Assembly (NCBI GenBank): GCA_015489765.1
Contig: WFZC01000278.1
Location: forward strand, 1-55,565
From: Desulfobulbaceae bacterium
Lineage (GTDB): Bacteria; Desulfobacterota; Desulfobulbia; Desulfobulbales; Desulfobulbaceae
Direction of reading: 5' to 3'
Length of the DNA: 55,565 nt
The position numbers and the translations under genes were made by a program. How positions within the stretch are numbered: position 1 is the stretch's first letter; each line of letters starts with the position of its first letter. The notes below the pieces were generated by a model. It was not told the origin of the DNA, ran no database searches, and saw only the letters and a list, made by a program, of their open reading frames with translations. Positions 32,494-36,938 of this stretch are shown one piece after another.

Positions 32494-33423
32494 TTACGTC
32501 CGGCCGCCGGATGCCGGCGGTAAACGCCACTCACGGGCAAGTACCTTGGCCTCCTGCAACAGACAGTATCCGTTTTTACGGCTGACGACCTGAATATCGA
32601 CGGAAAACCTATCCAGCAGCACGGCCAGCTGCTGCCAGAGTTCCCGATTCCCGACCTCTCTCCCCTGGCTGGTAATCCAGCCCCGCCGTTGCCAGCCCGC
32701 AAGCCAACTATGCACACCATCCCGGAGATAGGCTGAGGTGGTATAGACGGTGACCGGGATATTCTTTTTCAGGGCCGACAGGCCCGCAAGCAATGAGTGC
32801 AGATGAAATTGATTGGCGGAATCTCCCCGGCCCGCTCCCCCGATGACTTTCATGTACCTCTTGTACGAGAGGATAACGGCCCAGGAGCCTGTTCCATGAC
32901 TGGGCGCATAGGTGATGCCGCAGAAAATGGCGACTCTCTCTTTACCGGGCCGGGCGGTTTCAACTCTGTCTTCCTGTTTTTTAGACTGTCGACTCCGGGC
33001 CGCAACCGCCAGGGCATCGGCGCGTTCGTTCCAGGGATCCTGGGAGTGACCGCGCACCCATTGCCATCTGACCTGGTGCTTGCGGCTGACCCGATCAAGC
33101 TGTTCCCAGAGGTCACGGTTCTTGACCGGCTGCCGGGCTGCCGTCAGCCAGCCGCGCCTCCTCCAACCATCCATCCAGGAGCAGATACCGTTTTTCACAT
33201 AGGTGGAATCGGTCACCACAAGCACCCGGTGCGGCTCCTTGAGGCTCAACAGGCCGTTGATGACCGCTGCCAGTTCCATCCTGTTGTTGGTTGCCTTCTC
33301 TTCCCGGCCGCTCAGCTCCCGATATAACCGTCCACCTTTAAGCAGAACAGCGCCCCAGCCGCCAACTCCCGGATTCGGGTTGCAGGCGCCATCAGTGTAG
33401 ATGGTCACTTCAGGAAGGAGCAT
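32494..33423 (-). CDS. rnhA: RNase HI with a second, degenerate RNase H domain
   Basis: Residues 5-145 are a complete RNase HI: catalytic Asp11, Glu50, Asp72, His126 and Asp136 are all present, and the basic protrusion WMDGWRRRGWLTAARQPVKN lies at 83-102. It cuts RNA in RNA-DNA hybrids. Residues 163-300 repeat the fold, and WLAGWQRRGWITSQGREVGN (240-259) keeps the protrusion, but the acidic residues are replaced (Gly169, Leu208, Thr229 and Lys293 at the matching places). The second domain cannot cut and probably aids binding. ATG 33423 was preferred over TTG 33429. It lies 2 bases past the ligase-like gene. Confidence 0.88.
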   Translation of the reverse strand: MLLPEVTIYTDGACNPNPGVGGWGAVLLKGGRLYRELSGREEKATNNRMELAAVINGLLSLKEPHRVLVVTDSTYVKNGICSWMDGWRRRGWLTAARQPVKNRDLWEQLDRVSRKHQVRWQWVRGHSQDPWNERADALAVAARSRQSKKQEDRVETARPGKERVAIFCGITYAPSHGTGSWAVILSYKRYMKVIGGAGRGDSANQFHLHSLLAGLSALKKNIPVTVYTTSAYLRDGVHSWLAGWQRRGWITSQGREVGNRELWQQLAVLLDRFSVDIQVVSRKNGYCLLQEAKVLAREWRLPPASGGRT

Positions 33424-33425
33424 GA

Positions 33426-34313
33426 TCAATCATTCCTATTATAAATAATCTCTCCCGAATATTCGGTAATCATTGACCCGTCGGCCAACCGCATCACCAG
33501 ACCACCGCCGGTATCGATTTCCAGGGCCCTGGCCTGGTACAGCGGCCTTGTCTGCACATCATAGCCATAGGTCACCGACCTGCCAAGGGTATCGCTCAAC
33601 TGCCGCCAGCGCCGGAGAAGCATACTTTCTTCTCCGGCTGTACCGGCAAGGAACTGTTCTTCCGAATAATACAACAGGCCGATATTCCACTGCAACCTTG
33701 CCAGCAGCAGGGCGCAGAGCTGGTCCAGATCAACTTTTGCCCCGGTTTCGAGATAAAAAGAGGTGGCGACCGGCGCCAATTCCACCGGAAATTCCCGGAT
33801 ATTTGCGTTGATGCCGATGCCGATAAGATGAAATTGTTCTCCCTCAGCCCCTGCCACTGTTTCGCTAAGAATGCCGCAAATCTTTTTTCCCCCAATCCGG
33901 ACATCGTTCACCCATTGCAAACGGGCGGCCGAAATGAATTCCCGCACGGTTTCACAACAGGCTATACCAGCGGCAAAGGGCAGCAGACGGCTGAAATCCG
34001 GCAACAGGGTGTCGGCCCAGAGCAGGGCAAGATAGAGTCCTCCGGCCGGGGCATGCCAGTACCGGTCAAAACGGCCGCTGGAACCGGTCAGCCGGTCGGC
34101 CCGAACCACCTGGCCGGTTGCCGGAGACGGCGTTGTAGTATCCCGGACCTCGCGGCGGAGCAGATCCATACAGCGGGGCAACCGGGGATAATGGCGACAA
34201 GATGAGCCGACAGGGGCACCGTAGCGCAGAATCCGCCGGGTAACTTCAGGGCTGAAATTAGCGTCTTGCGCCTTTTCCGCGGCAAGACGGCAAAGGGCGG
34301 CATGGGAAAGCAC
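33426..34313 (-). CDS. biotin-protein-ligase-like enzyme with altered active site
   Basis: The 295-residue protein aligns with the BirA catalytic domain and C-terminal SH3-like domain: GGLYLALLWA, QWVNDVRIGGKKICGILSE and FHLIGIGINAN. Two key sites differ. The biotinyl-AMP loop GRGRxGR is replaced by GSSGRFDRYW (77-86), and the lysine of KWPND is replaced by Gln133. BirA uses both for adenylate formation and biotin transfer. It starts with GTG 6 bases after a gene for a biotinyl-like domain protein, so the two are likely a pair. It may be a weakened or re-specialised ligase. Confidence 0.75.
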   Translation of the reverse strand: MLSHAALCRLAAEKAQDANFSPEVTRRILRYGAPVGSSCRHYPRLPRCMDLLRREVRDTTTPSPATGQVVRADRLTGSSGRFDRYWHAPAGGLYLALLWADTLLPDFSRLLPFAAGIACCETVREFISAARLQWVNDVRIGGKKICGILSETVAGAEGEQFHLIGIGINANIREFPVELAPVATSFYLETGAKVDLDQLCALLLARLQWNIGLLYYSEEQFLAGTAGEESMLLRRWRQLSDTLGRSVTYGYDVQTRPLYQARALEIDTGGGLVMRLADGSMITEYSGEIIYNRND

Positions 34314-34319
34314 GGCCCC

Positions 34320-34970
34320 CTATTCCCACTCCGCCTTGACCCGGGTAATTATTTTCTGAATAACGGCCAGCTTTTCTTCGGGACAGACACCGATCAGGGG
34401 TACTCCCTGGTCAACACTGTCGCCCGGTGAAAAGTACAGGGAATGGAGGATTCCGGCCTCGCCGTCATAATAAACCGGCGTGTCCCGTTTCATCAGTGAC
34501 ATGGTGATGATCTCGTCACCCGGTTGGATAACAATCGAGCGGGCCCCTTTCTGGTCAATCCGGGACTGGATATCCATGGAAAAGTAATACCTGGCCCGTT
34601 CAGGTGCGGGAAAGAGATAGAGGACCTCCTGAAGAATGGCCTCGATAATCTCCTTTTTCTTGAGCGGATGACGGATGGTGAGCAGTTTTGTCCCGGCTTC
34701 GACAAATTTGCCCTCAACCTCTTTATTCAGCGAGGCAATGGTGCCGTTGGTTTTGGAGGTGATCACCTTGGGGTTTCGCTCCCGGGTAATCTCGTAGAGC
34801 GGTGATCCGGGTTTGTGGTGCCACTCGCCACTGACGCCCTGTACTTCCGCCCCGTCTTCGACTAGAAAACGCACCTCCCCGGCATGGACAGCGAACATAT
34901 CCACATAGTCATAGGGATCGGAACGATACTTGCTGAGAATTTCGTCAAAATGAATAGAATCGGATGTCAT
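34320..34970 (-). CDS. biotinyl/lipoyl-type carrier-domain protein
   Basis: The C-terminal part (residues about 142-196) resembles a biotinyl domain: SIVIQPGDEIITMSLMKRDT, where Met160-Lys161-Arg162 stands for the biotin motif Met-Lys-Met, followed by AGILHSLYFSPGDSV and GVPLIGV. An earlier part (about 66-101) also looks like a half barrel-sandwich (GTIASLNKEVEGKFVEAGTK). There is no carboxylase or transferase domain and no signal peptide. It is the first gene before the biotin-ligase-like gene. Modification of Lys161 is inference. Confidence 0.65.
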   Translation of the reverse strand: MTSDSIHFDEILSKYRSDPYDYVDMFAVHAGEVRFLVEDGAEVQGVSGEWHHKPGSPLYEITRERNPKVITSKTNGTIASLNKEVEGKFVEAGTKLLTIRHPLKKKEIIEAILQEVLYLFPAPERARYYFSMDIQSRIDQKGARSIVIQPGDEIITMSLMKRDTPVYYDGEAGILHSLYFSPGDSVDQGVPLIGVCPEEKLAVIQKIITRVKAEWE

Positions 34971-35190: not shown

Positions 35191-35979
35191 ATGGATAGCA
35201 AGGGTATTTTCCGCCCTGCCGCTACCCTGGATACTGGAGAAAACGATGCCAGCATGAACCGGGACACCATCTTTCAACAGCATGACATAAAAGAGGATTT
35301 TTCCTTTAACGAGCAAGTGGCCGAGGTCTTTGACGACATGGTGCACCGGTCTGTACCCCTGTACGAAACCGTTATCGATGCCATTGCCCGCATCCTTGAC
35401 CGTCATCAGCCCGGTCGGCAACTCACGGTCTATGACCTTGGCTGCTCAACCGGGACCACCCTGCTGGAACTTTCCCGAAGACTCCAGCACCGGCGGCTTC
35501 GGCTGATCGGCATCGACAATGCCGAATCAATGCTGGCAAAGGCCAGGAAAAAAGCGGCCATGTTCTGCAAAACCGATTGCCTGAGTTTTCGAAAAGACGA
35601 TATTACAGGCTGCTCCCTCACAGATGCCGATGCCATCCTCTGCAACTATACCATGCAGTTTATCAGGCCACCGGTCCGCAACGCGCTGGCCAGGCGTTTT
35701 TACCAGGCCCTGCCATCGGGCGGCCTGCTCATCGTCTGTGAAAAAGTACTCGCCGCCGGCGCCTTTCATCGACAGTTTATCGATATCTACCATGATTTCA
35801 AGCGGGAACAGGGGTATTCCGAACTGGAAATAGCCGCCAAAAGGGAGGCACTGGAAAACGTGCTCGTTCCTTTTACCGTTGATGAAAATATTTCCCTTCT
35901 TCGGGAGGCAGGTTTTGCCGAGGTGGAAATTTTCTGTAAATGGTTCAACTTTGCCTCCTTTGTGGCCCTGAAAAGTTAA
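35191..35979 (+). CDS. cmoA: carboxy-SAM synthase CmoA
   Basis: CmoA makes carboxy-S-adenosylmethionine from SAM and prephenate. The protein has VYDLGCSTGTTLLELSRR as SAM-binding motif I and CNYTMQFIRP, a CmoA hallmark, with DDMVHRSVPLYE at the start of the conserved part. Family members begin near NRDTIF, so ATG 35254 is an alternative start; ATG 35191 is used because GAG lies 7 bases ahead, whereas the inner ATG lacks a well-spaced site. cmoB follows 2 bases after the stop. Confidence 0.93.
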   Translation: MDSKGIFRPAATLDTGENDASMNRDTIFQQHDIKEDFSFNEQVAEVFDDMVHRSVPLYETVIDAIARILDRHQPGRQLTVYDLGCSTGTTLLELSRRLQHRRLRLIGIDNAESMLAKARKKAAMFCKTDCLSFRKDDITGCSLTDADAILCNYTMQFIRPPVRNALARRFYQALPSGGLLIVCEKVLAAGAFHRQFIDIYHDFKREQGYSELEIAAKREALENVLVPFTVDENISLLREAGFAEVEIFCKWFNFASFVALKS

Positions 35980-35981
35980 CA

Positions 35982-36938
35982 ATGGATTACCAACCCTTTT
36001 TTCCCGCAGCCGATATCAAGACCCTGCATGATGTCCTCAGGCAGAAGGAAAAATGGGTCAACCAGGCAAAGAAAGGCTTTTTACGCTATCGAGAACCTTA
36101 TCAGTCTGTCAGCCATCTGCGGGCCAAACACTGTGATTTTTCCCGGGACACGGTGACCATCGGCACAGCGGAAGACATCAGCGCTGAAGAGAGACAACGC
36201 GTAGAACAGGTTTTGCGGGGATTCATGCCCTGGCGCAAGGGACCCTTTTCCATCTTTGATATTGTTGTTGACGCCGAATGGCGCAGTTATCGGAAATGGA
36301 ATCGCATCCTGCCTGAACTTCCTGACCTGAAAGGAAAAATTGTCGGCGATATCGGTTGTAACAATGGCTATTACATGTTCAGGATGGTCCCCTTCCACCC
36401 CCGGTTTGTGCTTGGTTTTGAACCCTATGTGCAGCATTATTACACCTTCCGCACCTTAAACGGTTTCGCCCGTCAAACCAACCTGCGCATCGAGCTGCTC
36501 GGCATCGAACACCTGCCCCTCTTTCCAGACTGTTTTGACATCCTCTTCTGCCTGGGAATTATTTACCACCGCCGTTCGCCGCTCGACGCCCTGGAGGTTC
36601 TGTTCCGGGCCCTGAAACCCGGTGGCACCCTGATCATCGAGTCCCAGGCCATTGCCGGTGACGAGCCGGTGGCCCTCTTTCCTGAAAAAACCTACGCCAA
36701 GGTGCCGGGCACCTGGTTTGTGCCCACTGCCCCCTGTCTTGCAAACTGGCTGACCAGGTCCGGTTTTTCCAACGTCAAACAGTTCTGCCTCCATCCCATG
36801 AGCAGCAGGGAACAACGGAAAACAAACTGGATGTCCTTTGAATCCTACGACGATTTCATCCATCCCGATGATCCCTCCCGGACAATCGAAGGCTATCCGG
36901 CGCCGTGGCGGGTGTTTTTTTCAGCCAAAAAACTGTAA
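35982..36938 (+). CDS. cmoB: tRNA U34 carboxymethyltransferase CmoB
   Basis: CmoB uses carboxy-SAM from CmoA to turn 5-hydroxyuridine at tRNA position 34 into 5-oxyacetyluridine. Motif I is IVGDIGCNNGYYMFRM near residue 120, followed by FDILFCLGIIYHRRSPLDAL and LKPGGTLIIESQ. Length (318) is typical. ATG 35982 begins MDYQPFF; a longer frame overlapping cmoA was rejected. It is translated together with cmoA. Confidence 0.95.
   Translation: MDYQPFFPAADIKTLHDVLRQKEKWVNQAKKGFLRYREPYQSVSHLRAKHCDFSRDTVTIGTAEDISAEERQRVEQVLRGFMPWRKGPFSIFDIVVDAEWRSYRKWNRILPELPDLKGKIVGDIGCNNGYYMFRMVPFHPRFVLGFEPYVQHYYTFRTLNGFARQTNLRIELLGIEHLPLFPDCFDILFCLGIIYHRRSPLDALEVLFRALKPGGTLIIESQAIAGDEPVALFPEKTYAKVPGTWFVPTAPCLANWLTRSGFSNVKQFCLHPMSSREQRKTNWMSFESYDDFIHPDDPSRTIEGYPAPWRVFFSAKKL

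Follow-up and report, generated by a model that had tools for sequence, protein, structure and literature searches.

A biotinyl-type carrier and an adjacent biotin-protein ligase paralog in Desulfobulbaceae as probable parts of a divergent acetyl-CoA carboxylase of Desulfobacterota

Introduction

What is the function of a biotinyl-type carrier that is encoded next to a BirA-like protein of its own, where both partners depart from the usual residues of biotinylation and no carboxylase gene accompanies them? The question is raised by a gene pair in a 55,565-nucleotide stretch of DNA from a Desulfobulbaceae bacterium (the window). The original prediction for this pair regarded the Met-Lys-Arg motif of the carrier and the loss of the GRGRxGR loop and the KWPND lysine in the BirA-like protein as one joint departure, and proposed a co-evolved pair with another ligand or a regulatory function. 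From comparative sequence data we propose instead, with a probability of roughly two in three, that the carrier is the BCCP of a divergent acetyl-CoA carboxylase and that the BirA-like protein is its dedicated biotin-protein ligase (BPL) paralog.

Results

The two genes were found on the minus strand at the coordinates predicted for them. The carrier gene (34320..34970) encodes a BCCP-like protein of 216 amino acids with two barrel-sandwich domains, and the reading frame of the BPL paralog (33426..34313; 295 amino acids, GTG start) begins six bases 3' of the carrier frame. The divergent neighbors of the pair are cmoA and cmoB (35191-36938, plus strand; TIGR00740 and TIGR00452 above cut-off), and this layout is repeated through much of the window's family; there is no carboxylase gene among the immediate neighbors of the pair in the window.

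Residues 148-193 of the carrier match PF00364 with 29.3 bits against a cut-off of 22.1, and the C-terminal biotinyl-type domain (approximately residues 126-196; 34383..34595, minus strand) aligns in Foldseek with the Pyrococcus horikoshii BCCP with a TMt of 0.81-0.86 over 71-74 residues. In the structural model the predicted modification site, Met160-Lys161-Arg162 (34485..34493, minus strand), has its hairpin turn at residues 160-161, so that the carrier, like BCCPs, has a biotinyl domain whose Met-Lys pair sits at a hairpin turn. The site reads Ser-Leu-Met-Lys-Arg and in this departs from the canonical Ala-Met-Lys-Met of BCCPs, the motifs of which are known to vary, as in Sulfolobus tokodaii and Aquifex aeolicus with AMKS and ALKV (PMC3048393). 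All 117 distinct carrier sequences contain Met-Lys-Arg, with Met and Lys invariant and with Leu, Arg or Phe as the preceding residue, which rules out a chance or local change. As these 117 include carriers from families with only ordinary biotin ligases, Met-Lys-Arg is a signature of the carrier family and no proof of a co-evolved pair.

The carrier model comprises two barrel-sandwich-like regions, the relative orientation of which is uncertain (pTM 0.63). We considered a second modification site, at a lysine of the N-terminal barrel-sandwich domain, and rejected it, since the equivalent position is Arg65; this position is Arg in 68/75 carriers of the order, with minorities of Asn and Lys. An origin of the two domains by internal duplication was likewise set aside, the profile match between them being weak (P 0.0056).

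The ligase paralog matches PF03099 (41.4 bits, cut-off 21) and TIGR00121 (88.5 bits, cut-off 83.1), its model has a pLDDT of 93.7 with the P. horikoshii BPL as top PDB match, and no DNA-binding domain was seen in the protein. We compared 105 paralogs with 28 ordinary BPLs, residue by residue, in the numbering of E. coli BirA; for this numbering, and for that of the biotin carboxylase by E. coli AccC, the known landmark residues of both references came out at their proper positions. The residues Gly117, Arg118, Arg121, Trp123, Trp173, Asp176, Lys183, Gly186, Leu188, Gly204, Gly206 and Asn208 are invariant in the 105 paralogs, and Asn175 is nearly so. The paralog thus has the fold and the catalytic residues (Lys183, Arg118, Asn175, Asp176) of a BPL; Lys183, which is critical for adenylation in BirA (PMC2384007), corresponds to Lys144 of the window protein (33882..33884, minus strand) and is Lys in 105/105.

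The departures in the ligase noted by the original prediction, GSSGRFDRYW and Gln133, are present in the sequence, as is Met-Lys-Arg at Lys161 of the carrier, but they carry less weight than was given to them. In the loop equivalent to GRGR (Ser78-Ser79-Gly80-Arg81; 34071..34082, minus strand) both Gly115 and Arg116 are replaced by Ser; these positions vary within the family, most paralogs having Lys, Ser or Arg for Arg116, while Gly117, Arg118 (Gly80 and Arg81 in the window), Arg121 and Trp123 are all retained. Gln133 (33915..33917, minus strand) does replace the KWPND lysine, but this position is Lys in 77, Arg in 25 and Gln in only three of the 105 paralogs, all three from the window's genus, which rules it out as the key change of the family; KWPND makes no ligand contact in three studied BPLs (PMC2384007), and the Lys144 position is invariant.

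An altered ligand pocket had nevertheless been rightly suspected, and the systematic changes are found at positions that the original prediction missed, Ser89, Gln112 and Pro174. The Ser89 position is Ser in 28/28 ordinary BPLs and Arg in 102/105 paralogs (Arg47 in the window; 34173..34175, minus strand); as the alignment would predict, Arg47 falls at the biotin-side turn of the model, where a strand (38-45) is followed by a helix that starts at residue 48. Gln112, Gln in 28/28 ordinary BPLs, is replaced by Leu (92), Met (9), Val (3) or Ile (1), and is Leu75 in the window (34089..34091, minus strand). Pro174 is replaced by Val (88), Ile (14) or Leu (3), with Val135 in the window, and Asn91 by Met in 98/105, at a position where ordinary BPLs also vary. 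In BirA structures Gln112 has a role in holding biotin. Ser89 and Thr90 of E. coli BirA are the hydrogen-bonding partners that await biotin (PMC2384007). With the head-group residues Ser89 (Arg in 102/105) and Gln112 (Leu or Met in 101/105) lost, biotin may not be the ligand of the paralog. A phylogenetic tree separates the paralogs from the ordinary BPLs as a single clade, with moderate support (0.76) and a branch length of 0.70. On sequence grounds we class the paralog as a BPL-family protein and not as a proven biotin ligase. Apparent ligase fusions in long open frames of two genomes (G220, G062) were discarded, as their N-terminal extensions look like low-complexity run-on of the frame and not like a domain.

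Besides the paralog, the genome of the window encodes a single PF03099 protein (at G000:C375), in which the GRG loop and KWPND are both ordinary; this is the second, ordinary BirA for which the original prediction had called. It also encodes two Met-Lys-Met carriers, one in a biotin carboxylase fusion and one in a carboxyltransferase-like protein, and gives no match at cut-off to the standard AccB model, TIGR00531.

Conservation of the pair as a unit in relatives was borne out across Desulfobulbales and beyond. Clustering of neighboring reading frames identified two genes directly upstream of the carrier in many loci, a biotin carboxylase (BC) and a carboxyltransferase (CT) of about 750 amino acids, the N-terminal part of which matches AccA (TIGR00513, 2.3e-46) and the C-terminal part AccD (TIGR00515, 4.8e-47), both below the equivalog cut-offs. 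Leaving aside the window's family and one other (f12), the gene order BC, CT, carrier, ligase is found in most families of the order, and the same operon occurs in further families of the phylum; the carrier loci retrieved from outside the order all adjoin the CT. The absence of a nearby carboxylase is thus a local feature of the window that is not shared by most of the order's other families, and the carrier is encoded together with BC and carboxyltransferase, as a BCCP would be, in its relatives but not in the window. In several families the paralog gene sits apart from the carboxylase operon. The carrier of the window is 56-69% identical to its operon-linked homologs.

The BC retains 12 of 13 checked active-site positions (Lys116, Lys159, His209, Lys238, Glu276, Glu288, Asn290, Arg292, Gln294, Val295, Glu296 and Arg338) in 47/47 sequences, none of them from the window. 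At the thirteenth position, where E. coli AccC has His297, all 47 sequences have Asn, beside an otherwise invariant catalytic Gln-Val-Glu.

In the window's family the pair has moved next to cmoA and cmoB, with the CT elsewhere in the genome, and congeners encode both BC and CT away from the pair. Neither gene was found in the draft assembly of this genome. In a congener whose carrier is 100% identical, the BC lies near a contig end (C336:5619-7013); in its upstream part, 5,475 bases of that contig match contig C257 of this genome (96%), and the match runs to the very end of C257 (base 12,746), about 140 bases short of the congener's BC. Since C257 ends so shortly before the BC, the missing BC and CT fit an assembly gap, and it is apparently in this gap of the draft that the carboxylase genes lie.

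The carrier was detected in 76/96 relatives and the CT in 72/96, while the AccB model reaches its cut-off in 1/96, a single genome (G027) that may reflect contamination. The CT is absent from two genera of the family (g2 and g8), the same two that lack the carrier. Near-complete Desulfobulbaceae genomes of these genera (for example G008, G014 and G058) have no CT, carrier or paralog, and do encode a fused biotin-carboxylase protein. Carrier loci are labeled Desulfobulbaceae, Desulfocapsaceae, Desulfobulbus, Desulfofustis and cable bacteria (Electrothrix, Electronema), with the looser labels Desulfobacteraceae, Deltaproteobacteria and Proteobacteria for others. A search of 395 genomes of the phylum at E<=0.001 gave 76 carrier matches; six weak ones, from family f44, look like other carriers, which leaves the carrier in 70/395 genomes, spread over many families. 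The paralog (E<=1e-40) is present in 52/395, and all 52 have the carrier, in raw counts that include shared descent, so that the paralog seems to be dependent on the presence of the carrier. The 18 genomes with a carrier and no paralog belong to two families, f54 (16) and f43 (2). Those of their BPL-family proteins that were examined are ordinary ones, 7/18 genomes having just one such protein, and Met-Lys-Arg is kept in all nine of their carriers that were examined. The motif is therefore independent of the paralog, which in principle is not needed by such a carrier, and a single joint departure of carrier and ligase is not supported.

Discussion

Most probably the carrier serves as the BCCP in an acetyl-CoA carboxylase of a Desulfobacterota type. 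The rarity of the standard AccB (1/96), the shared absence of CT and carrier and the retained BC active-site residues make malonyl-CoA synthesis the likeliest role of the enzyme, and acetyl-CoA is its probable substrate from the similarity of the CT to AccA and AccD. A role outside carboxylation is not supported by the operon of the relatives, where the carrier accompanies a BC with its checked active-site residues intact and a fused AccA-AccD CT.

We propose a divergent heteromeric acetyl-CoA carboxylase, present in part of Desulfobacterota, in which the carrier would work together with the BC and the fused AccA-AccD CT; its Lys161, at a Ser-X-Met-Lys-Arg turn, would be the swinging arm of biotin-dependent carboxylation. 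The paralog would bind ATP and an acid through a conventional adenylation site (Lys144, Arg81, Arg84, Trp86, Asn136, Asp137), form the acyl-adenylate and pass the acyl group to Lys161; the Met-Lys-Met carriers of other carboxylases would be served by the genome's ordinary BirA. Sequence comparison directly shows that the carrier belongs to the carboxylase operon in relatives, that paralog and carrier co-occur, that the residues of carboxylation and adenylation are intact and that the pocket is altered; that the acid is biotin, the target Lys161 and the paralog catalytic, we infer.

The main weakness of taking the paralog for a dedicated ligase is its loss of the head-group contacts, which a non-catalytic partner or a ligase for another acid explains better. 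The ordinary BirA might biotinylate the carrier, with the paralog acting as a chaperone, assembly factor or regulator; the coexistence of Met-Lys-Arg carriers with ordinary BPLs alone in f54 and f43 is consistent with this, as is the replacement of Ser89 and Gln112 in nearly all paralogs. However, Lys183, Arg118, Arg121, Trp123 and Asp176 are invariant in all 105, a constraint that would be needless for pure binding, and we consider a partner of this kind unlikely.

It is rather improbable that the paralog attaches to the carrier an acid other than ordinary biotin, such as a biotin derivative, lipoate or octanoate, or a dicarboxylate. The change of the head-group side to Arg and Leu or Met in almost all paralogs of the phylum, with the ATP side intact, would be expected of such an enzyme, but the partner of the carrier is a BC with its checked active-site residues intact, and paralog-free relatives run the same carrier with ordinary BPLs. 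Slightly less probable again is the specific form in which a BPL-fold ligase of new acid specificity would place a prosthetic group that is not ordinary biotin on an acetyl-CoA carboxylase carrier; were this true, the carboxylase of much of Desulfobacterota would carry a non-standard cofactor or a second one. Finally, that the pair does something unconnected with carboxylation in this genome is suggested by its position beside cmoA/cmoB, and not beside carboxylase genes, in the window and its family, and is very improbable given that congeners retain BC and CT elsewhere, that genera without the carrier are also without the CT, and that the carrier is so similar to its operon-linked homologs.

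The proposed BCCP resembles AccB of heteromeric acetyl-CoA carboxylase and the P. horikoshii BCCP in its biotinyl-type domain and Met-Lys hairpin turn, and AccB in adjoining, in relatives, the genes for biotin carboxylase and carboxyltransferase; unlike these proteins, it has Arg after the lysine, Leu, Arg or Phe before Met-Lys, and an extra N-terminal barrel-sandwich domain. The paralog has the fold and adenylation residues of the BirA/BPL proteins of E. coli, P. horikoshii and Mycobacterium tuberculosis, and differs from them in the changes from Ser89 to Arg, Gln112 to Leu/Met and Pro174 to Val/Ile and in being a second, separate ligase in its genome. The BCCP site of S. tokodaii is not biotinylated by E. 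coli BirA, according to work cited in PMC3048393; in contrast to the BCCP/BPL pairs of S. tokodaii and A. aeolicus, Met-Lys-Arg occurs phylum-wide and a carrier-linked second ligase is found in most lineages. Two BPLs in one genome are described for Lactococcus lactis (PMC4861984), and two BPL-family genes, DVU2557 and DVU1835, for Desulfovibrio vulgaris (PMC10102598); the excerpts of these papers on which we draw describe neither a BPL paralog with such head-group changes nor a BPL tied to a single carboxylase carrier. Our search, which covered the open-access literature, found no account of this carrier family, carboxylase or ligase clade.

If the dedicated-ligase proposal is right, sulfate reducers, cable bacteria and other anaerobes would make malonyl-CoA by means of a carboxylase with its own carrier ligase, and an orthogonal biotinylation system would operate within one cell. 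As the head-group changes occur naturally in a ligase that is intact elsewhere, they make the dependence of BPLs on Ser89 and Gln112 for biotin directly testable, and an orthogonal pair of BPL and BCCP would be of use for labeling.

The surroundings of these genes have recurrent features of their own. An lnt-like gene, a corC-like gene and prfB recur as neighbors of the carboxylase operon (loci L129, L105, L132 and similar), and in two families (f69 and f96; L241, L243) the paralog alone lies beside lnt- and prfB-like genes, with the carrier elsewhere. In the window, a reading frame at 32494-33429 on the minus strand contains two RNase H-like stretches (PF00075, both), and its first half is a full ribonuclease HI match (PRK00203).
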